DNA of 64,000 nt from positions 31,189,075-31,253,074 of the forward strand of contig NC_135175.1 of NCBI RefSeq assembly GCF_041146795.1, read 5' to 3'. Shown piece by piece: positions 46,106 to 64,000 of this stretch. The stretch's first letter is position 1. Every line of letters starts with the position of its first letter. The notes beneath the pieces are model-generated. The model did no database searches, had not been told where the DNA came from, and saw only the letters and a list, made by a program, of their open reading frames with translations. The translations under genes and the position numbers were made by a program. Source of the DNA: Maylandia zebra (lineage: Eukaryota > Chordata > Actinopteri > Cichliformes > Cichlidae).

Positions 46106-47616
46106 TAAGTAAAACTTTATTTATATAGCACCTTTCAAGATAAAAATCACAAAGTGCTTCACAGAAGCTAAAACCTAAAAATAAAAATCAACCAAAAGCA
46201 AGTTTAAAAAGATGGGTTTTTAGCAGTTTTTTTTTTTTTTTTTTAAAGCGACCACTGAGTCCACAGATCTCAGGCTCAAAGGGAGAGAGTTCCACAATCT
46301 GGGGGCCACAGTTCCAAAAGCTTTGTCGCCTTTTGTTTTCAGCCTCGTGTGTTGGACAGCAAGCAAGCCCTGGTCACATGACCTCAGGGACCTGCTGGGA
46401 ATGTATGGATGTAAAAGTTCACTTATATATGTTGGTGCTTGTCCATGCAGAGCCCTGAAAGTCAAGGTCAAAACCTTAAACTGGATTCTGAATTCAACGG
46501 GGAGCCAGTGCAGCTGAATCAGCAGGGGTGTGACATGGGAAAACTTGGAGGACTTGGTCAGAAGCTTTGCAGCGGCGTTCTGAACAACTTGTAGACGCTC
46601 CAAAGAGGCTTTACATAAACAAGTAAACAAAGAATTACAATAATCCAGACGAGATGAAACAAATGCATGAATGACAATTTCTAATTCGGAGCGCGATACA
46701 ATGGGACTCAGCTTAGCAATGTTTCTCAAATGATAAAAACAGGAGCGAACCAAAGATTTTACATGGGCATCCAAAGTCAGAGCTGAGTCAATACTAACAC
46801 CAAGGCTCCTGATAGACTGTTTTGCAAATGTAGCAAGTGGACCCAAGTTTTCCATAACACTAGGTACAAAATTTTTAGGAGCACAAACAAGAACTTCAGT
46901 CTTCTCCTCATTTAGTTGAAGAAAGTTTCCAGCCATCCAACATCTAATGGAGTCTATGCACTTGTGCAAAATCTGTAGCTTGGAAACATCATGGGGCTTA
47001 AAGGAGATATATAACTGAATATCATCTGCATAGCAGTGATACGAAATGTCCTTAAAAGTGCTCAATAAGTGTTGAAGAGGAAGTAAATACAGTAAGAACA
47101 ATAAAGGCCCCAAAACTGAACCTTGTGGCACACCATAGGCAAGAAAAGTAGAAGAGGAACTGTACTTCGAGGTAGCCACAGAAAAGGATCGTTCATGCAA
47201 ATAGGATTCAAACCAGTCCAAAGCAGCCCCTGATATACCCACCAAACCTCTCAGCCTATCTAGCAGAATATGATGGTCCACAGTATCAAAGGCGGAGGTC
47301 AGGTCCAACATCAACAGAACGGAGCATTCTCCTGCATCACATCTCATCAAAATGTCGTTGGAGACTCTAAGAAGTGTAGTTTCAGTAGAGTGAGCTCTAC
47401 GAAAGCCAGATTGGAATTTATCCAGAATGCTGTATTCATCTAGAACAGCTATAAGCTGCTTAGCCACAACCTTTTCTAAAATCTTAGAAATGAACGGTAA
47501 TTTTGAAATCGGTCTGTAGCTACTGAGAAGAGAAGCATCAAGCTTAGGTTTTTTAACAGTGGGTGAATAACAGCATTCTTACAATAAACAGGGACCTGAC
47601 CTGTTTATTGTAAGAA
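46106..47616 (-). mobile_element. 5'-truncated L2/CR1-like LINE with reverse transcriptase
   Basis: A minus-strand frame of 415 codons (46220-47467) encodes the C-terminal half of a non-LTR retrotransposon ORF2. It shows the RT blocks DLTSAFDTVDHHILLDRL, YGVPQGSVLGPLLF and YADDIQLY, then the thumb and tail (RLDYCNSLF, LHWLPVEFRI). The element's 3' end lies at left, with the TTTATTTATATAGCACCTTT motif and TAAG tail repeats at 46106-46140. Upstream the same protein continues in another frame (near 47545 one base is missing in the run of A), so the copy is broken. It ends in a 17-bp fold-back at 47576-47616. The endonuclease domain is absent. Confidence 0.88.
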
Positions 47617-48600
47617 ACCCTAACTTTATCAGTAAAGAGGTATCGGTACAAGATGTAACTTATGTTTGTCCTTTCTAAAGTACTTAACTCAATAGGAATT
47701 CAAGTTATGTTTAAACAGCCTGTGTGTCAATACATTTAGGTAGAAACCTCACAGCAAGTTCACTGCAGTGCAGCTAGCATGTGTGTTATTTCTAAAAACA
47801 GATTAAGTGGCAGGAAGGCAGAAAGTACTTTTTATATTAATTTAATGTGACAAGTTCAGATGACAGTGGTTCAAATGCAAAAAACTAAGCATCTTCGGTG
47901 TTGCAGTGAGAATACAGGGATTAAAAATAATCTGCAAATTTTAATCACACACCCATCTTTGTCCAGTGCTCTTTCAGATTTGGTTAGTATTTAGGCTGTA
48001 CCTGGAAAGCAGACACCAGCAGCTTTGCAGCTTGAGCAAAAACTGGGAGATTGCAGTAGCTTCTTGGGCGCGTGCTGCCTCCCTATAGTTACATTTTAAA
48101 TGTTTGGCTGCTTTATGGGGAAATTGGGCACCTGGTCCTACTTACCCCACCAAGCTTATACTAAACAGGTGCACTAATTTAAGACCTTTATACATTTAAA
48201 TAAGTTCTACAAACCAGTAACCACAATCATAAAATAGAGAAAATCTTAAAGAGACTGGATGTGGGTACCATGAATCCCCATGTGTCACAACAGTTATGAT
48301 GCAACATTCATTTCTCAAAGAATGCAGAGACTTGTTTGGTATCAGCTTTTCACCATTTACCAAAGAATTTCTACAAGTCTGGGAAAAGCACTGGTGTGTT
48401 GGTTGATGTGGATTATTTTTTGCACAGGCTTAACAAAAAAACAAACAAAAAACCAAAAACAAAACGCATGAGCTAAATCAGACCTCAAGACTCCTGTTTA
48501 AAACATTCAAAGGTGCTCAGAAACTTGGCATCAAACGGATCAGCACATACAAAACATTTAGTAGTCAAGAGTATAAAGCACAAACTAAATGTTCATTTGA
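47617..48600. other. Spacer downstream of gene A
   Basis: Nearly 1 kb between the LINE and the 3' end of paralogue A. No coding frame, repeat or RNA gene is recognised. Confidence 0.5.
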
Positions 48601-48781
48601 AAGGTCAGTCCAGTAGTCCAGCAGGTTCCACACTGCAGTTCCTAAAATAAAAGGCATAGATTTAATGTAGTGTTTGAAACTTGCCCTGCTCCCCTCAACA
48701 AGGATGATGTGCCTGAAAGAAACCCACAATAAATTCATTGATTTTGCGCATTTTGTTTTCTGATGTGCCAGTGTGGGTGGC

Positions 48782-51700
48782 TTACCGACATGAAGCTATG
48801 AAATGTTGGTATCTGATCTGCAGGGGGTGCTGAAGCTTCTTGGCCTGGTACAGTGGCACCTTGGGACTGTAGCTTGGCAATCGGGATTGGTAGTGTGACA
48901 TGAAAGGCTGGTAGCGTGGCTGCTTGGCCTGGAGCTGGTAGAGTGGCCGTTTGGGCCATTGGGCTTCCAGAAGCTGCTTGAATTGGTAATATGTCTGCTG
49001 AGGCATGGGCTGAGGCTGAGGGTACAGGGGCAGAACGGCAGCCTGCTGGGGCACCTGCAGATGGAGGTACAGGGGTGGGAAGACTGCCTGCTGGTGCACC
49101 TGTGAATGGGGGTGCAGGGATGGAAAGACAGCTTGCTGGGGAACCTGTGGATGGGGGTGCTGGGACAGAAAGGCAGTCTGCTGGGAAACCTGTGGATGGG
49201 GGTGCTGGGACAGAAAGGCAGTCTTCTGGGGAACCTGTGGATGGGGGTGCTGGGGCAGAAAGGCAGGGCCCTGTGGTGGCTGAAGATGCAGGGGTGGGAA
49301 AGCCTTCTGCTGCGTTGCCAGAGGCAGAGAGTGTGAATGCAAACCAGTCTGCTGGAGAACCTGTGGATGGTGGTGCTGGTGCAGAAAGGCAGTCTTCTGG
49401 GGAACCTGTGGATGGGGGTGCTGGGGCAGAAAGGCAGGGCCCTGTGGTGGCTGAAGATGCAGGGGTGGGAAAGCCTTCTGCTGCGTTGCCAGAAGCAGAG
49501 AGTGTGAATGCAAACCAGTCTGCTGGGGAACCTGATGTGGATGATGTGGACGTAAACCAGTCTGCTGCTTCAACTTAGGGAGACTTGGTGGATGGTGTGG
49601 ATGCAAATGAGACTGCTGGGTCACCTGAGAGAGACTGGGTGGATGCAAACCAGTGTGCATTGTCACCTGAGATAGACTGGGTGGATGCAAACCAGTGTGC
49701 ATTGTCACCTGAGATAGACTGGGTGGATGCAAACCAGTGTGCATTGTCACCTGAGATGGAGTGGGTAGATGGTGTGGATGTAAACCAGTCTGCTGGCTCT
49801 GCTGAGGCACACTGGGTGGATGCAAAACAGCCTGCTGGCTCACCTGAGGCACACTGGGTGGATGCAAAACAGCCTGCTGGCTCACCTGAGGCACACTGGG
49901 TGGATGCAAAACAGCCTGCTGGCTCACCTGAGGCACACTGGGTGGATGCAAAACAGCCTGCTTGCTCTCCTTAGGCACACTGGGTGGATGCAAAACTGTC
50001 TGCTTGCTCTCCTTAGGCACACTGGGTGGATGCAAAACTGTCTGCTGGCTCACCTGAGGCACACTGGGTGGATGCAAAACTGTCTGCTTGCTCTCCTTAG
50101 GCACACTGGGTGGATGCAAAACTGTCTGCTTGCTCTCCTTAGGCACACTGGGTGGATGCAAAACTGTCTGCTTGCTCTCCTTAGGCAAACTGGGTGGATG
50201 CAAAACAGCCTGCTGGCTCACCTGAGGCACACTGGGTGGATGCAAAACTGTCTGCTTGCTCTCCTTAGGCACACTGGGTGGATGCAAAACTGTCTGCTGG
50301 CTCACCTGAGGCACACTAGGTGGATGCAAAACAGCCTGCTGGCTCACCTGAGGCACACTGGGTGGATGCAAAACAGCCTGCTGGCTTACCTGAGGCACAC
50401 TGGGTGGATGCAAAACGGTCTGCTTGCTCTCCTGAGGCACACTGGGTGGATGCAAAACTGTCTGCTTGCTCTCCTTAGGCAAACTGGGTGGATGCAAAAC
50501 TGTCTGCTGGCTCTCCTGAGGCACACTGGGTGGATGCAAAACTGTCTGCTGGCTCTCCTGAGGCACACTGGGTGGATGCAAAACAGTCTGCTTGCTCTCC
50601 TGAGGCACACTGGGTGGATGCAAAACGGTCTGCTTGCTCTCCTGAGGCACACTGGGTGGATGCAAAACGGTCTGCTTGCTTTCCTGAGGCACACTGGGTG
50701 GATGCAAAACTGTCTGCTTGCTCTCCTTAGGCACACTGGGTGGATGCAAAACAGTCTGCTTGCTTTCCCGAGGCACACTGGGTGGATGCAAAACTGTCTG
50801 CTTGCTCTCCTTAGGCACACTGGGTGGATGCACCTGAGGCTGATGCAGTGCTGGCTTACCAACATGCTCTGACAACTCTGGCTTTTGGGGCTGCTTTACC
50901 TGGCAGCTCAGGGTTGGGCAAGGCCGGCAGGCAGACTGCTCCTTGTGCGGGCAGGGCCGGCAGCTAGGCCCCTGGGGTGGACAGGGTCGGCATGAAGGCT
51001 GCTTATTGGGTAGGCAGGAAGTTTTTAGTTGTTGTTGGGGCACCTGTGACTGCTTGGGTTTGCGCTGACGTGGTTGAGATGCCCGTAGATTTGGTAGGGG
51101 CCGAACATCAGGCTTTGGTTCTTTGGACACAGAGCCATTCTGTTTTAGGGTTTCAGATTCAGGGTGATACTGGTTAGTGGAGGACATAGTTGTGTTGTGG
51201 CTTTTTGCATTCAAGGGTGAGGTATGATTTCCAAATGTCTCACTACCATGCAAAGTGTCATTCCCAGAGTTAAGACTACTTAAATCCAATCGATCATCTG
51301 CAACAGGCACCTTCTGATCTGCATGATTTTCAAAAGGGACAGTGTTATAGGCTTTTAAGCAAAAATTTAAGTCTACAAAATGCAATGGTGTGTTTGCTTA
51401 CCATTTGCTTGAGGTCCTCCCACAACTAACAAAAACAGCATCCACCATCTAGACAAAATACCAAAATGACTCTAAGCTTTAATAACACAACTTAAGAGAT
51501 GGTTTGATACAGATATTAGTAAAAACTAGTGATGGGTCCAGAAACACTCACGCACCGACGCATGTATCAAGCTCCACTAGCGATGCCTTGCCGTGCGTCG
51601 CTTTAAGAAAAAGTCACGTGATCGATACAGCTGCTGTATCGCTCATTGCCAACGCGCCAAACTGTGTTTAAAAGGTACCGCATCCGCATCTGCCAACGGA

Positions 51701-52468
51701 ATGAGTCCCCACCAAAAAAACAAAACAAAACACAAAATTACTCTCGCAAAGATTAAAAATAATAATAATAATAATAATACACATCTCTCCATAACACAAT
51801 GGAGCCCGAAAGAAAAAGAAATGTTTCTGCTGTGTGGAATCATTTTGATCTTTTAACTGCAAATAAGGTAATAGTTTGTCTGTCTTTGTTTCAGTGTAAT
51901 CTATCAGAATAGAGAAAAAAAAAAAACAGCCATGTGACTTGAAGTGTAAATTATTCATTTCATTTTATGCAGGTTAAATGTCGCATCTGTTCTGCGGAGG
52001 ATAAACCTATTTTTCTGAATAGAAATTTATAATAAACTGAGTCAAATGGGTAATATTACATTCACAATACTTTCATTTTAATTTTCACTTAATGTCATTC
52101 ATAATATCAGAATCAGAATCAGAATACTTTATTGATCCCTGGGGGAAATTATTTATATATTAATATATTTTAAAGATGTCTACAATATTTGCAATATAGA
52201 AGATATAAAATGATTCCATGGAAAGTACAATACCTTACAGTGTATACAGTGCATATAAGTATGACTAGGTCATTGAATCAGTGTCTGTTGTGAGTCTCAA
52301 GTAAGTTGCCTGCAATGATATTTAAGGTCCAGCAGGTGTCAGTATGGAGCAAAACAGTCGACACAGTGTCGATACAGTTTGGGGAATGTGCTGAAACGCT
52401 TCACGAGGCCTCATCTACCCATCACTAGTAAAAACAGTTTTAAAAGCTTACCTTAATAAAAAACTCAT
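48782..52468 (-). CDS. Secreted Pro/Gln-rich repeat protein, paralogue A
   Basis: I do not recognise the family. Exon 1 (52452-52468) and exon 2 (51402-51448) encode a signal peptide, MSFLLRWWMLFLLVVGGPQA. Intron 1 is phase 2 with a GT donor; intron 2 is phase 1. Exon 3 starts at 51351 and stays open to 48782, giving about 877 residues. The order is: an Asn/Ser-rich head with N-glycosylation sites (NHTS, NTTM); a Pro/Cys-rich patch (QPSCRPCPPQGPSCRPCP); about 24 copies of VLHPPSVPQESKQT; His/Gln/Pro repeats; and a Tyr/Pro C-terminal module from QWPKRPLYQL (about 819) to QIRYQHF. A GT donor at 48785 overlaps the stop, so the last residues may come from a further exon (acceptor near 48715). A 901-bp hAT element sits in intron 1. 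An extracellular coat or matrix role is only an inference. Confidence 0.8.
49211..49552 (-). repeat. 171-bp tandem duplication inside gene A
   Basis: Two adjoining copies (49211-49381 and 49382-49552, the last diverging near its end) encode AFPPLHLQPPQGPAFLPQHP and neighbours. The spacing of 171 bp is 57 codons, so frame is kept. Confidence 0.75.
49800..50830 (-). repeat. 42-bp coding minisatellite in gene A
   Basis: About 24 head-to-tail units of 42 bp encode VLHPPSVP(Q/K)(E/V)S(K/Q)Q(T/A). Units differ by few changes and fall into KESKQT, QESKQT and QVSQQA/T types in a mixed order. This pattern points to repeated unequal exchange or gene conversion. Towards the C-terminus, longer diverged units GLHPPSLSQVTMHT follow. 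Confidence 0.92.
51757..51779. repeat. (AAT)n microsatellite
   Basis: Run of AAT units inside the hAT element in gene A intron 1. Confidence 0.9.
52112..52270 (-). mobile_element. LINE-type 3' tail nested in the hAT element
   Basis: CAGAATCAGAATCAGAATAC followed by TTTATTGATCCCTGGGGGAA is a common terminal sequence of teleost LINEs, here in reverse. About 160 bp remain and no coding part is present. Confidence 0.5.
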
Positions 52469-52507
52469 GGTCTCAGCTGCAGGAAGCAGCAAACTCTGCC
52501 ACTTCTC

Positions 52508-52522
52508 TCAGCTGCTACCAAA
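52508..52522 (-). promoter_or_regulatory. Family 5' box, gene A
   Basis: On the minus strand this reads TTTGGTAGCAGCTGA, containing a CAGCTG E-box, 40 bases upstream of the start codon. The same 15 bases occur at the same place in genes B and C. A TATA-like TTTTAAAAGG lies about 45 bases further upstream. Confidence 0.6.
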
Positions 52523-52810
52523 TCAAGAAGCTGAAAAACACAGCAAGGCCAGTGCAGCCCTTTTAAAAAATTTTCCTCTCTGTCATGGGTGGTTAATTGG
52601 ACTCAGGTGTGATTGTTTGTATGCAGGTGTAGCTAATTAGGAAACACTGTGGCCAACAGTAATGTTTTAATCTTCTTCATTATTCAACATTTGCACATAA
52701 ATAAGTGACATATTATTCAGTACTTTTAAAAGTTTTCGGCAAAATTATCCACGCCCACTGCTGCACTATGAAGTCTGGGATATTTTGGGCCACGAAGTCT
52801 ACGCCGTCAC

Positions 52811-52949
52811 ATCCTTAAAATTCAGGGAAATCAAGGACGCATTTGTGGCTGCATTTCGAGCAGCCTTTGAATTGGGACAGCCTCGCTGTCGCTGTGACGT
52901 AATCGGCCTTAAAATGCGGCCTTTTAGGCTGCAGACCCTGAATTAGGAT
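52811..52949. repeat. Small MITE-like repeat
   Basis: ATCCTTAAAATTCAGGG at the left and CCCTGAATTAGGAT at the right are inverted partners (two-base gap) around a GC-richer core. No clear target duplication is seen. Other sequence from 52560 to 53160 is spacer. Confidence 0.4.
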
Positions 52950-53164
52950 ACAGCCATATTCTACTGTTTTACATGGTGCTGTATGCAATACATTTGTTTT
53001 TTTTGTAAAGCATAATAGGTCAGGCTGGGCCAGTTCCTATGTATTTAACAGTTCTATCACTGATACTTTATTCTGTTTATTTATAGTCAATTACTAGTTT
53101 TTGGTCACTATTATTCTGGTATTTATTGTTATAAACTGTGTTTTAACTAGTTCTTGTTGTTTGG

Positions 53165-54500
53165 GGGCCCTTAAAAATGAATTATTTCTTGACCTATCTG
53201 AATCAGCTGTCTTAGGAACAGTTCTGTTTACGTTATATGTGCTTGCTTTAGGCAGTATTATTAGGATGCATAGTATACATTTTCACTGCTCTGCAGATGA
53301 CACCCAATTTTATCTAGAAGCCAGATAACGCAAACCATTTAGATAAGCTGTAGGTATGTCTTAAAGACAAAGACGTCAATCACGTCTAACTTTCTGCTTC
53401 TTAATTCAGATAAAACTGAGGTTATTGTATTCTGTCCTGAAAATCTTAGAAATATGGTATCTAACCAGATTCTTACTCTGGATGGCATTACCTTGGCCTC
53501 CAGTAACACTGTGAGGAACCTTGGAGTGAAGTTTGACCAGGACATGTCCTTCAATGCACATATTAAACAATTATGACTGCTTTCTTCCATTTGCACAACA
53601 TCTCTAAAGTTAAAACTGTCCCATCTCAGAGTGACACTGAAAAACTAGTTCGTGCATTTATTACTTCTGGGGTGGACTACTGAAATTTATTATTATCAGG
53701 ATGTAAGAAAAAACAAAAATCTCCCTTAAAAGCCTTCAGTTTATCCAAAACCCACAGCAAGAGCACTGATACGGTCTAGAAAGATCAAATTTCTCTTCCT
53801 TGCCTCGCTGTTAATCGAATTTAAAATCCTGCTCCTCTCATACAAGGTCTTGAATAATCAGCCCCCCCATCTTATCTTAAAGACCTTATAGTACTGCATC
53901 ACCCCAATAGAGCACGTGTGTGATTCCCACTATCAGTGAGCTTCTATCCTCAGGCCAAGTCCTACGACCTTATGTCCCATTCCAGAACTTTCACTGTCAT
54001 ATTTGATTTGTTATATCAAACGCTGCTACACCGTTTGTTTATATTACCCTGCTCGCTGTTGTACATTACACTGGTCACTCTACTTGCATTGCTCTGTCAA
54101 TAAATTGCCATTCTAATAAGGCAGAAAGCACTTTAACATTCCATTTGCACAATGTACATTTCCAGAGTTTAACCTTACTTATTGTTTAAGTCTTGATCAA
54201 AGGAGCAGTTCAGAACATTTCATTGTGTGTTGTACTTGTATGACAATGTGACAAAGACTCTTGTGGTTCCTGGAGTATTCAAAAGTAGGACAGGAGGCAG
54301 AGTCTTCAGCTGTCAGGCGCATCTTCTGTGGAACCACCTTCAAATTTGGATTTAGGAGACAGACACCATCTCTACTTTCAAAAATAGGCTTAAAACGTCT
54401 ATTAAAGCATATAGTTGGGGCTGGATCAGGTGAACCAAAAACCTCCCTCTGTTACGCTGTAATAGTTTCTGGGCGATTCCCATGATGCACCAAGTATTTT
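53165..54500 (+). mobile_element. Decayed L2-like LINE with a nested LINE tail
   Basis: Fragments of reverse transcriptase text survive on the plus strand: HCSADDTQFYLEAR, NQILTLDGITLASSNTVRNL and GVKFDQDMSFNAHIK. Later pieces resemble the ORF2 C-terminus (53640-53990, 54255-54440). Stops and frameshifts are frequent. Between about 53990 and 54255 lies a separate tail ('catttcattgtgtgttgtac ttgtatgacaatgtgacaaa') typical of another LINE's 3' UTR. It lies between genes A and B. Confidence 0.7.
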
Positions 54501-55012
54501 TAGTCACCTTTCACACTGCGTTTATAAACCACTCCGTATTTAATCCTTAGTAATTATCTTTGGGGAGAGCTCTTCCACAGCATCTCTTATCTGCAGTGTA
54601 AAATTTCAATCTGCTTTGTATACAAGTTTCTACAAATTGTAACTCTTAACAGAAGGAAAGCATTGTGTTGGCATCATACACACATCTTGTCAAACTTTAT
54701 TACCAAATCATTCAGTAAATGCTTAGAGAGTCAAGATGAAAGTTATTTTAATTGGGAAGGTCCGTACAACGATTCAGAAGGCTCAACATTGCTGTGCCTA
54801 AGAGAAAACATTCATGAATAAAGGCCATTGAAAACCAGTTATCTCATTAATCGTTTTCCATGACCATTGGTCCCTTTGTGTGGCTATTACATTAGCACCA
54901 CGTTCTGTGCCTGAAAGAAATAAATCCCACTTAAAATTCACTCCTGTTACTCAGCCAGTAAGAAGAGCTCACCCAGATGAAGGTTGAGCAGAAATTGGAC
55001 TGTTTAAAAAGT

Positions 55013-55929
55013 TTAACTTTCTAGAAGTAACTCACCTGGTGGGGATACTGGAGTTGCTTGCCTGGATAGACCAATAACTTTCCCCCTGTAGATGGGCAAG
55101 ACAGTCATGTAGTGTGGACGCTTGGACTGGTAGTAAGGCTGGTAGTGTGGCAATTTTGCATGGTACTGAGGCATCTGGAGTGAGTATAGTGGCCACTTGG
55201 CCTGATAGTGAGGTCTCTGAAGCTGGTAAAGTGGACGGTCAGGCCACTGGGGCAGGAAACCAGGCAGCCTGAGTGGAGAACCAGGCCGGTGGGACACCCG
55301 AGGCTCCTTGGATTGGCAGAAGTGCTTGGGCGGGCAGGAAGGCTTCCACTTTGGCTGGGTTGCCCAAGATAGGGAGTCAACCTGCTGTCTGGGAAGCTGT
55401 GGTGCACTGGTGAACTGCTGGGCCTTCTGGGGAAAGCACAAAGCCTTTGAGCTGTGCCAGCATACACGCTGAATGGGTGCCTGAGGTTTATGCTGCTGCC
55501 GGGGGACCCGTGACTGCAAACCAGACTTCACTACCTGTGACATTTGATGATGTGCATAAAACTAGTGATCAGGCAGAGACTTGCACGGTTAGATTCACTG
55601 TTGTGCCAGGATCACTTGCCTTTGCATTCAGGGTTAAAGTATGAGCAGCATTTGACTCGCTGCGCCATGAAGCATTCACTCTGGGGTAACGACTACCTGA
55701 ATCTGGTTGGTATCCAGCAAAAAGCAGTTTGTTAACCTTTAAGAATATTTAATCTATGCAATTAAACAGTGATGCAATTTAACTTGCTTACCGTTTGCTT
55801 GATGACTTCCAACAGTGAGAAGTAACAACAACAACAGCCAACTAAAGAAAACAAGTGTCTGTAAGCTCTAACTGAAAACTTTTAGCTTCATAGAAACCTA
55901 TTTAGTACTTGCCTTAATGAAAACCTCAT
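55013..55929 (-). CDS. Secreted Pro/Gln-rich protein, paralogue B
   Basis: Exon 1 (55913-55929) ends in a GC donor. Exon 2 (55792-55841) completes a signal peptide, MRFSLSWLLLLLLLTVGSHQA. The intron phases match A and C. In the region matching A and C exon 3, an uninterrupted reading hits a stop at 55569-55571. Removing an 85-base GC-AG intron (55535-55619) restores frame, giving exon 3 at 55620-55702 (acceptor CCAACCAG) and exon 4 from 55534. The product would be about 223 residues. It lacks A's repeats but keeps QWPDRPLYQL and many Tyr-Gln pairs (PHYQAKWPLYSLQMPQYHAK). A donor at 55036-55041 (CAG|GTGAGT) suggests a further 3' exon near 54900. It could instead be a pseudogene. Confidence 0.55.
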
Positions 55930-55971
55930 TGCTTCAGCAGCAAGAACCCACAAACCCAGCAGCTACTGCTG

Positions 55972-55986
55972 TCAGCTGCTACCAAA
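55972..55986 (-). promoter_or_regulatory. Family 5' box, gene B
   Basis: The same TTTGGTAGCAGCTGA as in genes A and C, 43 bases upstream of the start codon, with a TTTTAAAG TATA-like motif further upstream. Confidence 0.6.
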
Positions 55987-56591
55987 CCAGGAGACCAGCA
56001 AAAGAACCTGAGCTCTCGAAAATCTTTAAAAGGTTTTCCCTTTATCTTGTTGATTAGGTGACCACAGGTGTTTCTACTTCAGAGCAGATTAAGCTCACTA
56101 TGACACCAGGAAAGGACCTTGAGGTATTTTGCAACTCTTTGCAAATCATTTTCAGCAGCTTCCATTGTGCAGATGCTGTTCAGATGACTTAAATGTGAAA
56201 AACCTGCAGCTGAATTTGTTGGAGCTGCTGATTGGTTTAGATGTTTGTTCTTAAAGAAGCCTAAATATTTTCACTGGATTTCCAAATAGTATGATTTTAA
56301 ATTATGAAGGTTAATTCTGCTAAAATAATACATGTGCAGCTGACAGAAGTATTCCGCCATTGGCTTTATGTCTATATCAACATGATTTCTATCAATAAAA
56401 TCATTGCAAAGTTTGGAAATTCCTTTGCTACAAACATTAAAAAGTAGGTTTGGCTTAACAAACATAAACAACACATTAAATAAGTGTACTAGTCTAAAAA
56501 TCTCCTTTATTTCATTTATTGCAAAAGTTTAAGAATATCATATAGCTTAGAAAAGACAGCCTGCTCACTTTACAGGTTACCACAGCTGATC

Positions 56592-56690
56592 GTGGGGCGA
56601 CCGTGGCTCAGGGGGTTGGGAAGCGCATCTGTAACCGGAAGGTTACAGATACGGAGTAGTGCTCCCTCTAGTGGAGGGGATTGTAAAAGC
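56592..56690 (+). repeat. tRNA-derived SINE fragment
   Basis: GGGGCGACCGTGGCTCAGGG (A-box region) followed by 'gcatctgtaaccggaaggtt' is the head of a common fish SINE. It is cut off before the B-box. The remaining spacer between genes B and C (56040-57400) shows nothing else recognised. Confidence 0.6.
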
Positions 56691-57431
56691 TGCATTATTA
56701 GAGTTACAATAAAGTTTACTGAAGCAGAAAGCACCAACGTCTAAGAAAAAAAACCCCTGTGAACTTTGCACACTCCTAGAAAACACATTGAAACACAAAG
56801 GTTTGCCAGGTGAACAGTATCTACTTTGATCCAATGTTTTAAAGAAAACAAGTTAGAAGCAGTTCTTAGCCTTCTGAGTGTAATGGAGTAGATGTGCTGT
56901 GGAATGGATATGGATACGTTCAATGGAAATGTTGCAAAAACCCTTTTGGGGCACACATTATGCTGGCAGCCTTTGTCAAAGATGGTGTAACAATATAGGG
57001 GATAATATAGGGATTTAGTTTAGCTTAACGCTAAACTAGATATTGAGCTTTTCAACAAATAAATAGACACGTATAGCAAAAATAATTATAGCAGTAGCTG
57101 TATTTTACTTTGAAAGGTCAGAACAGTGTTTCAATGTTGCAGTGCCTAAAACAGAAATCGTGAGTTCAGGAAAGTAACATCTGAACTCTTGGATGATCTG
57201 AGAGGTTTCATTAGATAACCTTCCCCATTGTTTCTCTTAGTGTTGCTGCCTCATGCTTATTAGCTGCTGCGCCGGAAAGAAATTCATGTTAAACACAAAA
57301 GTCCCCCGATGTTGCCCTGCCTACTTTTATAACGTCCTAGCGGAGACAGTTTGATTACAAAATTTGAGGGGAGAAAAAAAAGAAAAAGAAAAAGATTTGG
57401 ATCATAATTTTAATGAGTCTGCTTGAAAAAC

Positions 57432-58549
57432 TTATTTCCAACGTGCATATCTGATCTGCTGGGGGTGTCGAAGATGCTTGATTCGAAAGAGCGGAGTCTT
57501 GGGTCGGTGTCCTAGCAGCCTTTCCCGGTAACGGGATATCATGGGCCGGTAATGTGAGTACTTGGCCTGGTAGCGAGGGATCAGGAGCTGGTAGGGTGGC
57601 CGTTGTGGCCACTGGGCCATTTGCGGCTGCTGGAGCCGGATACTTGGCCGGGGTACCTGCTGCCACTTTAGGGCCGAACCAGGCTGCTGGGGTGCCTGAG
57701 CCACCTGTGCCCATTTGAGTTCAGCTCTAGGCTGCTGGTGCACCTCTGCAAATTGTAGCTGTTGGAGAGGGGATTGATGCATTTGGATTAAATCCAGCCG
57801 CTGGTGTGATGAACCAGGCTCCTCTGGCACCCACAGCTGCTGAGATGGAGAGTAGAACTCTGGGGATACCTGGGACACCTTAGGCACCCCCAGCCGGTTG
57901 AGTGGAGAACGGGGCTGCTGTGGTACCTCCAGCTGCCAAAGTGGAGGACTACGCGGCATTGGCACCTGCAAGAGCACCTGTGATGGGCATGTAGTCTCAC
58001 TGGGTGGGGAGGTAGGTGGCGGCACCTGGGGCTCCTGTGACTGCCTGGATGAGAAGGTACGCTGCTGTTGGAGCACCTGTACCTGAAAACCAGACTCCAC
58101 TTCTTTTAGTGGAGGTTCAGTATTACTTAATGAATACTGGAAATCTGGCAAAGACCCATTTTGTGCCAGTGTTTCGGCTTCAGGCTGATAATCCACTGTT
58201 ACTGTTGTGCTGTAGTTACTCTCATTCAAGGTTGAATTATAGTTATCAAGTATCCCACTGGTCCCCAATGTCTCATTTTTAAAGTAAATGCTTAAATCCA
58301 GTTGATCATCCGTATGGGCTAATTCTTGATCTGTGAGAGAACATTGGAATATGTTAGACAAAAATGTTGGTGCATAAAATTATCAAATTTTATTTGCTTA
58401 CCATTTTCTTGATGACTTTTGACAGCTAGCAAGAACAACAGCAACCATCTAGACAAAAGAGACTATAAGCTTTAATAGTGACATTAAAAATATGTTTGAT
58501 TTAACTTTAAAAAAAACTTCTTTAAGGCTTGCCTTAATATAAACATCAT
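57432..58549 (-). CDS. Secreted Pro/Gln-rich protein, paralogue C
   Basis: Exon 1 (58533-58549, GC donor), exon 2 (58402-58448) and exon 3 (57432-58330) join in frame to 320 residues. The start gives a signal peptide, MMFILRWLLLFLLAVKSHQ; two ATGs adjoin and the upstream one was used because it matches the 17-nt exon of A and B. After an Asn-rich, probably N-glycosylated head (YNSTLNESNYSTT), the protein is rich in Gln, Pro and Ser. It ends in the family module QWPQRPPYQL (about 261) to HPQQIRYARWK. It has no long tandem repeat. The spot matching the last acceptor of A and B reads TTTCTTTCCG, without AG, so C seems to have lost that intron. The family is unknown to me. Confidence 0.8.
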
Positions 58550-58588
58550 AGCTTCAGCTACAGGAAGCAGCAAAGACAGACACTTCTG

Positions 58589-58603
58589 TCAGCTGCTACC
58601 AAA
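58589..58603 (-). promoter_or_regulatory. Family 5' box, gene C
   Basis: TTTGGTAGCAGCTGA on the minus strand, 40 bases upstream of the first ATG, as in genes A and B. Confidence 0.6.
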
Positions 58604-58839
58604 CTATGGACCTAGAAACTAATGAACAGACAGTAAGGCAGCGAAACTCTTTGCAGAACTTTATTTTCTTACCTTCTGGCTTAATTGGCCAGCTGTGTGA
58701 CTACTTGAAGCCAGGTGAAGCTAATTAAGAAACCAGCGAAGCACAATGAGGCACTGCAGGCAGATTTAAGCAACACTCTGCCAACCTTCAGTTCAGCTTT
58801 CTTCAAATGTTTTATCAGGGTTGTTTGAAATGAAGCAGA

Positions 58840-62686: not shown

Positions 62687-64000
62687 CAGTGGGGCAAAAA
62701 AGTATTTAGTCAGCCACCGATTGTGCAAGTTCCCCCACCTAAAATGATGACACAGGTCAGTAATTTGCACCAGAGGTACACTTCAACTGTGAGAGACAGA
62801 ATGTGAAAAAAAATCCATGAATCCACATGGTAGGATTTGTAAAGAATTTATTGGTAAATCAGGGTGGAAAATAAGTATTTGGTCACCTCAAACAAGGAAA
62901 ATCTCTGGCTCACACAGACCTGTAACGTCTTCTGTAAGAAGCTTTTCTGTCCCCCACTCGTTACCTGTATGAATGGCACCTGTTTGAACTCATCATCTGT
63001 ATAAAAGACACCTGTCCACAGCCTCAAACAGTCAGACTCCAAACTCCGCCATGGCCAAGACCAAAGAGCTTTCGAAGGACACCAGGAAAAGTATTGTAGA
63101 CCTGCACCAGACTGGGAAGAGTGAATCTACAATAGGCAAGCAGCTTGGTGTGAAAAAATCTACTGTGGGAGCAATCATCAGAAAATGGAAGACATACAAG
63201 ACCACTGATAATCTCCCTCGATCTGGGGCTCCACGCAAGATCTCATCCCGTGGGGTCAAAATGATCATGAGAACGGTGAGCAAAGATCCCAGAACCACAC
63301 GGGGGGACCTGGTGAATGACCTGCAGAGAGCTGGGACCAAAGTAACAAAGGTCACCATCAGTAACACACTACAACGGCAGGGAATCAAATCCCGCAGTGC
63401 CAGACGTGTTCCGCTGCTGAAGCCAGTGCATGTCCAGGCCCGTCTGAAGTTTGCCAGAGAGCACATGGATGATACAGCAGAGGATTGGGAGAATGTCATG
63501 TGGTCAGATGAAACCAAAGTAGAACTTTTTGGTATAAACTCAACTCGTCGTGTTTGGAGGACGAAGAATACTGAGTTGCATCCCAAGAACACCATACCTA
63601 CTGTGAAGCATGGGGGTGGAAACATCATGCTATGGGGCTGTTTTTCTGCCAAGGGGACAGGACGACTGATCCGTGTTAAGGACAGAATGAATGGGGCCAT
63701 GTATCGTGAGATTTTGAGCCAAAACCTCCTTCCATCAGTGAGAACTTTGAAGATGAAATGAGGCTGGGTGTTCCAACATGACAATGATCCAAAACACACC
63801 GCCCGGGCAACAAAGGAGTGGCTCCGTAAGAAGCATTTGAAAGTCCTGGAGTGGCCTAGCCAGTCTCCAGACCTCAACCCCATAGAAAATCTGTGGCGGG
63901 AGTTGAAAGTCCGTGTTGCTCGGCGACAGCCCCAAAACATCACTGCTCTCGAGAAGATCTGCATGGAGGAATGGGCCAAAATACCAGCTACTGTGTGTGC
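62687..64000 (+). mobile_element. Nearly whole Tc1 transposon, runs off the right edge
   Basis: The left terminal repeat begins CAGTGGGGCAAAAAAGTATT directly after a TA at 62685-62686, as in Tc1/mariner insertions. The transposase follows from 63051: a paired-type helix-turn-helix DNA-binding region ([20 protein letters not shown]) and a DDE domain. The DD34E residues are seen in [21 protein letters not shown] and LNPIENLW. A single in-frame TGA at 63759-63761 falls at an Arg codon of the family (probable CGA to TGA change). Otherwise the frame is open to the window end. It sits in nceh1 intron 2, same strand. Confidence 0.93.

Follow-up and report, generated by a model that had tools for sequence, protein, structure and literature searches.

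A tandem trio of genes for predicted secreted, disordered proteins in a cichlid genome, with a possible link to the egg coat

RESULTS

Structure of the trio

Here we describe three genes, A (58549-57432), B (55929-54798) and C (52468-48605), that follow each other on the minus strand of a 64,000-nucleotide stretch of the Maylandia zebra genome (the window; contig 9, positions 31189075-31253074, of a 962 Mb assembly in 63 contigs). They almost certainly constitute a real tandem family, so far known only from cichlids, whose products are very likely secreted and intrinsically disordered. The genes have similar promoters, a first coding exon of 17 nucleotides, a second exon of 47 (A), 50 (B) or 47 (C) nucleotides, introns in phase 2 and then phase 1, and a C-terminal module QWPxRPxYQL, which reads QWPQRPPYQL in A, QWPDRPLYQL in B and QWPKRPLYQL in C. 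This layout had been described in an earlier, sequence-only reading of the same DNA, and we see it in all three genes. Acceptors are AG throughout, and exon 1 ends at a GT donor in C but at a GC donor in both A and B. The N-glycosylation sites proposed in that reading are present as well, with 5 sequons in A, 4 in C and, counted from the sequence, 2 in the spliced model of B, the number for B being low because its other candidates are out of frame or lie within the intron that is spliced out.

The main features are as follows.

58549-58533, 58448-58402, 58330-57432, minus strand: gene A, 320 amino acids; relatives P0001-P0003
57432-57617, minus strand: C-terminal module of A, QWPQRPPYQL and basic Tyr-rich tail
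55929-55913, 55841-55792, 55702-55620, 55534-55036, 54910-54798, minus strand: gene B, 253 amino acids in the five-exon model; splice joins match P0004 and P0006
55535-55619, minus strand: 85-nucleotide GC-AG intron of B, which holds a stop codon; placed by the splice joins of relatives
52468-52452, 51448-51402, 51318-48786, 48641-48605, minus strand: gene C, 877 amino acids; fourth exon modelled only
49597-50832, minus strand: 42-nucleotide tandem units (14 amino acids, HPPSVPxxSxQxVL) in the middle of C
49020-49266, minus strand: second array in C, 45-nucleotide units (15 amino acids)

The lengths given earlier for A and C were borne out, although the 877 residues of C need the fourth exon (48641-48605), which is a model without outside support. 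The long open frame of C says little by itself, since the 42-nucleotide repeats keep other frames open too. Across 26 repeat units the minority bases number 32, 17 and 24 of 364 at the three codon positions, with no clear codon signal. Intron 1 of C (51449-52451) measures 1003 nucleotides, whereas that of A has 84 and that of B 71; an insertion of repeat DNA may account for the difference.

Copy number and relatives

A back-translated QWPxRPxYQ pattern, searched for exact matches, occurs three times in the genome, each time at the trio, and its reversed control does not occur. A 121-nucleotide query around exon 1 of C likewise returned only the trio loci (three candidates, three scored; E values 1.4e-55, 9.8e-15 and 3.8e-7); as this search skips words of very high frequency and scores top-ranking candidates, more diverged copies may escape it. 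When 5.77 billion sequences were searched with protein A (838 candidates), three proteins were found at E values up to 1: P0002 from O. niloticus (87% identity), P0003 from Archocentrus centrarchus (57%, with 83% of the query covered) and P0001 (99%), which begins within intron 2 and is therefore an unspliced genomic reading. The earlier proposal of a fast-evolving family of secreted type is supported, as seen in the step in identity of A from O. niloticus to Archocentrus. A profile search added three further relatives among 7183 candidates, all of them B-like and the named one from O. aureus, and did not recover P0001-P0003. The search with protein C scored the 7988 candidates that had most words in common with it, and none reached an E value of 0.001 or better, probably because the repeats swamped the search. 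All relatives of the trio that bear a species name come from cichlids. Since the protein searches require shared 5-residue words, this holds at their sensitivity, at which a restriction of the family to cichlids seems likely. No paper on the family was found under the locus names or among the abstract openings that the literature searches returned.

In the databases the O. niloticus relative is called 'putative uncharacterized protein DDB_G0294196' and the Archocentrus relative 'glutenin, low molecular weight subunit 1D1-like isoform X3'. These names look driven by composition and without functional content. Homology to wheat glutenin was rejected: P0003, which bears the name, has no Pfam match, and both named protein matches of A are from cichlids. 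The tail of P0003 resembles A in another frame (VLTLPxHDxxLPxKAARxPTQD; 57355-57720 of the window, minus strand) and not in the QWPxRPxYQL frame, through either a frameshift in Archocentrus or alternative splicing; A and C, too, are open in this other frame.

Protein features and selection

The sequence-only reading knew of no named family with this layout, and we found no credible match in Pfam or the PDB. Pfam, for which P0002 stood in for A alongside P0003 and the window open reading frames of C and B, gave one match below the curated cut-off in P0002 and otherwise none; the PDB, queried with A only, gave two matches at E values of about 1, which we take as chance. Rfam gave no matches at gathering scores. 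In the AlphaFold model of P0002 the mean predicted local distance difference test score is 45.6, with 206 of 305 residues below 50 and only the signal helix near confidence. As the underlying alignment holds three sequences, what the model shows is the lack of a confident fold.

Proline and glutamine together make up about 26% of A and 33% of C. The counts of Gln, Lys and Tyr are 45, 10 and 12 in A, 26, 14 and 10 in B, and 130, 48 and 11 in C. Within the N-module (residues 21-90) the ratio of basic to acidic residues is 1/12 in A, 6/9 in C and 11/2 in B, and the C-module of A has 15 basic residues and 1 acidic residue among 61.

The ratio of nonsynonymous to synonymous substitution rates (dN/dS) was calculated between the paralogs, all comparisons being short and partly gappy. 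For A against C, the 82 codons of the N-module give 0.42 and the 56 codons of the C-module 0.51, and the end modules of these two genes are under purifying selection. For A against B, 23 codons of the signal peptide give 0.48 and 58 codons of the C-module 0.79; for C against B, 45 codons give 0.26.

A hidden intron in gene B

Read without interruption, exon 3 of B runs into a stop codon and a change of frame, a point absent from the sequence-only reading. Our initial reading of B as a pseudogene was dropped once relatives joined across an 85-nucleotide intron were found. The relatives P0004 and P0006 read ...TLTLNAK followed by VVKSGLQ or VAKSGLQ, which fits a GC-AG intron at 55619-55535 in B. 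P0006 is O. aureus LOC116322162 isoform X2, a database prediction, and P0004 lies on a contig of 965 nucleotides. From ATG to stop, P0004 would need about 1040 nucleotides of unspliced DNA in the window; the contig is too short for this, and spliced RNA is its simplest reading, though it might come from a processed copy in the genome of another cichlid. Because the O. aureus prediction and the 965-nucleotide contig are both joined exactly at this intron, B is very probably transcribed in cichlids. The five-exon model gives a protein of 253 amino acids; splicing to the next acceptor in place of the fifth exon would give 232. The relatives have 228 and 244. The length of about 223 proposed earlier is near these values and remains unconfirmed.

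The intron (55535-55619) sits inside a region that is a single exon in A and C. When the exon-3 region of A or C is aligned to B across the intron, the scores are 113.5 and 125.5, against maxima of 80.5 and 89.5 in 300 shuffles. The 85 intron bases alone have no significant similarity, their score being reached by 126 of 2000 shuffles for A and 1611 of 2000 for C. It might be possible that the intron arose from coding sequence by intronisation. An intron in B within the single-exon region of its paralogs is useful for studying the origin of short GC-AG introns.

Promoters of the trio and of ZP genes

Upstream of each gene lies a block of short motifs.

58681-58728, minus strand: promoter block of A; TAATTA and CACCTG, then CAGCTG and CCAATTAA
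56065-56101, minus strand: promoter block of B; degraded in part, with CACCTG kept as its second E-box
52593-52640, minus strand: promoter block of C; TAATTA and CACCTG, then CACCTG and CCAATTAA

In A and C, TAATTA and CACCTG are followed by a second CASSTG E-box and CCAATTAA, at about -179 to -125, and B has a weaker form. Alignments among the 300-nucleotide upstream regions of the trio surpass those of all 1840 control windows, which overlap one another. In oocytes, FIGLA binds E-boxes (CANNTG) and NOBOX binds TAATTG/A sites (PMC3718783, excerpt). We compared the five ZP promoters of the genome whose start could be placed: a ZPB gene on contig 18, and a ZPB gene, a choriogenin-H-like gene and two ZPC genes on contig 7, the type names being our reading of the sequences. 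A 17-nucleotide matrix built from all three genes scores 14.7 in the promoter of the contig-18 ZPB gene, which has a trefoil domain, and none of the 1840 controls reaches this score. The motif there lies at -188 from the ATG, compared with -172 to -179 in the trio.

DISCUSSION

Possible role in the egg coat

The best functional reading of the trio, which we put forward tentatively and at somewhat less than an even chance, is that of matrix proteins made by the oocyte and associated with the egg coat, the promoter motif being its sole specific support. Each protein has a signal peptide, a short N-module that bears N-glycosylation sites and is acidic in A, less acidic in C and basic in B, a Pro/Gln-rich middle that changes freely and is expanded in C by tandem repeats, and a basic, Tyr-rich C-module. 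The oocyte would make these proteins under E-box/homeobox control, like some ZP genes, and secrete them to the egg envelope or to the layer at its surface. The basic, Tyr-rich tail could retain them there, as could cross-links formed by transglutaminase at their numerous Gln and Lys residues when the envelope hardens after fertilisation. The sequence-only reading had suggested an egg coat, a mucosal layer or another extracellular matrix as the site, with cross-linking via Gln, Lys and Tyr, and such cross-linking is plausible. The fish chorion hardens by transglutaminase cross-linking, in which choriogenins take part, and there is little or no loss of hardening genes in African mouth-brooding cichlids (PMC12186722, excerpt).

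Several results weigh against an oocyte role. The likeness to the ZPB promoter was spotted by eye before it was tested and is present in one of five ZP promoters, and hence the match is a lead. When the matrix is built from A and C only, the ZPB promoter scores 13.9, which is reached by 1 of 1840 controls between -200 and -100 or by 2 of 1840 over the whole 300 nucleotides, the controls overlapping each other. In the remaining four ZP promoters the best same-strand scores run from 5.5 to 7.8, and one ZPC promoter reaches 11.2 on the opposite strand. Aligned as a whole, the promoters do not stand above background against three ZP genes. The bare pattern TAATTAGCTNNACCTG has 18 matches genome-wide against 1 for the reversed pattern, an excess that suggests a composite site in use. 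Fifteen of these 18 places were fetched, and a second CASSTG E-box together with a further CAATTA or TAATTA within 50 nucleotides is confined among them to A and C; none of the other 13 was identified as an egg gene, as far as nearby motifs and ATGs were checked. Below one of them (L056) lies a homeobox-like open reading frame that matches nothing in Pfam, and the stretch fetched there holds no second homeobox exon. At the protein level, the trio shows no sequence similarity to 2034 open frames of fetched loci, most of them loci with a ZP-domain match. A single common mechanism is also weakened by B, which has no acidic N-module.

The egg-coat reading can be extended to an egg-surface family born in cichlids and run by the oocyte ZP programme, in which repeat expansion, intron gain and coding divergence would be fast enough to differentiate the coats of closely related cichlids. 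Such a family would be a candidate for a part in gamete recognition, or for differences in egg adhesion between substrate spawners and mouth brooders. We regard this extension as a whole as unlikely. If the trio were ovarian, its tractable three-gene locus would offer a fast-evolving candidate for the egg surface, restricted in lineage, within a vertebrate radiation that has been studied intensively. At minimum, corrected gene models are now available for a locus that databases call 'glutenin' or 'DDB_G0294196'.

Known families and alternative explanations

Fish ZP egg-coat proteins (choriogenins, ovarian ZPB, ZPC) are secreted, as the trio is. At least one ZP gene of the genome (L007) has P/Q-rich N-terminal repeats, and one ZPB gene has the 17-nucleotide promoter motif in common with the trio. 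Unlike them, the trio and its relatives have no detected ZP or trefoil domain, and the exon layout differs. PF00100 was not found in P0002, P0003 or the window open reading frames of C and B, and the window lies outside the 68 PF00100 matches of the genome. The two likenesses in promoter and N-terminal part could be explained if the trio were former ZP genes that lost the ZP domain and kept the rest; this is improbable, as the trio proteins resemble none of the open frames from mostly ZP-domain loci, and as the ZPB signal peptide is whole, in one open frame with the start of the trefoil domain, whereas that of the trio is split. P/Q-rich SCPPs are secreted, Pro/Gln-rich, fast-evolving proteins encoded in tandem clusters, and the trio resembles them in these four properties. 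SCPP genes are linked to the SPARC-like/SCPP cluster. The matrix-type composition of the trio would suit a derived SCPP of enamel, scale or tooth with altered gene structure. This is largely refuted and very improbable: SCPP introns are virtually all in phase 0 (PMC6732285, excerpt) and those of all three genes are in phases 2 and 1, and no SCPP gene is seen among the neighbours identified, which are part of the window genes (IRF-family, IBR-domain and UPF0172). On the features tested, membership in both families is thus rejected, for SCPPs by intron phase and for ZP proteins by the missing domain, while the trio may work in a P/Q-rich, egg-coat-like manner.

That the trio encodes secreted matrix or mucosal proteins of a different tissue (mucus of the skin or gut, the buccal lining, the matrix of pharyngeal teeth or of scales, or seminal fluid) is a serious possibility, if short of even odds. 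Composition, signal peptide and disorder suit any such layer, and the presence of the motif in one of five ZP promoters would then be a chance likeness; the score of the three-gene matrix in the ZPB promoter, above all controls and at a similar distance from the ATG, speaks for the egg. It might also be supposed that the genes are non-functional, decaying duplicates whose frames stay open through low complexity. The stop in uninterrupted B, the open alternative frames, the tail of the named Archocentrus protein in another frame and the lack of a codon-position signal in the C repeats would all fit this. Set against them are dN/dS values under 1 between A and C for each of the end modules, preserved splice sites, and the spliced form of B in an O. 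aureus prediction and on a short contig, so that we consider decay highly improbable.

Genomic neighbourhood

In the window Pfam further identifies an IBR-domain gene (RNF31-like in our reading), an IRF-family gene and a UPF0172 gene (EMC8/9-like in our reading). RNF31, IRF9 and EMC9 are neighbours in mammals. Between the UPF0172 gene and gene C lies a reverse-transcriptase open reading frame (RVT_1, 46220-47578), and a Tc1/Sleeping-Beauty-type transposase open reading frame is found at 62988-63761.

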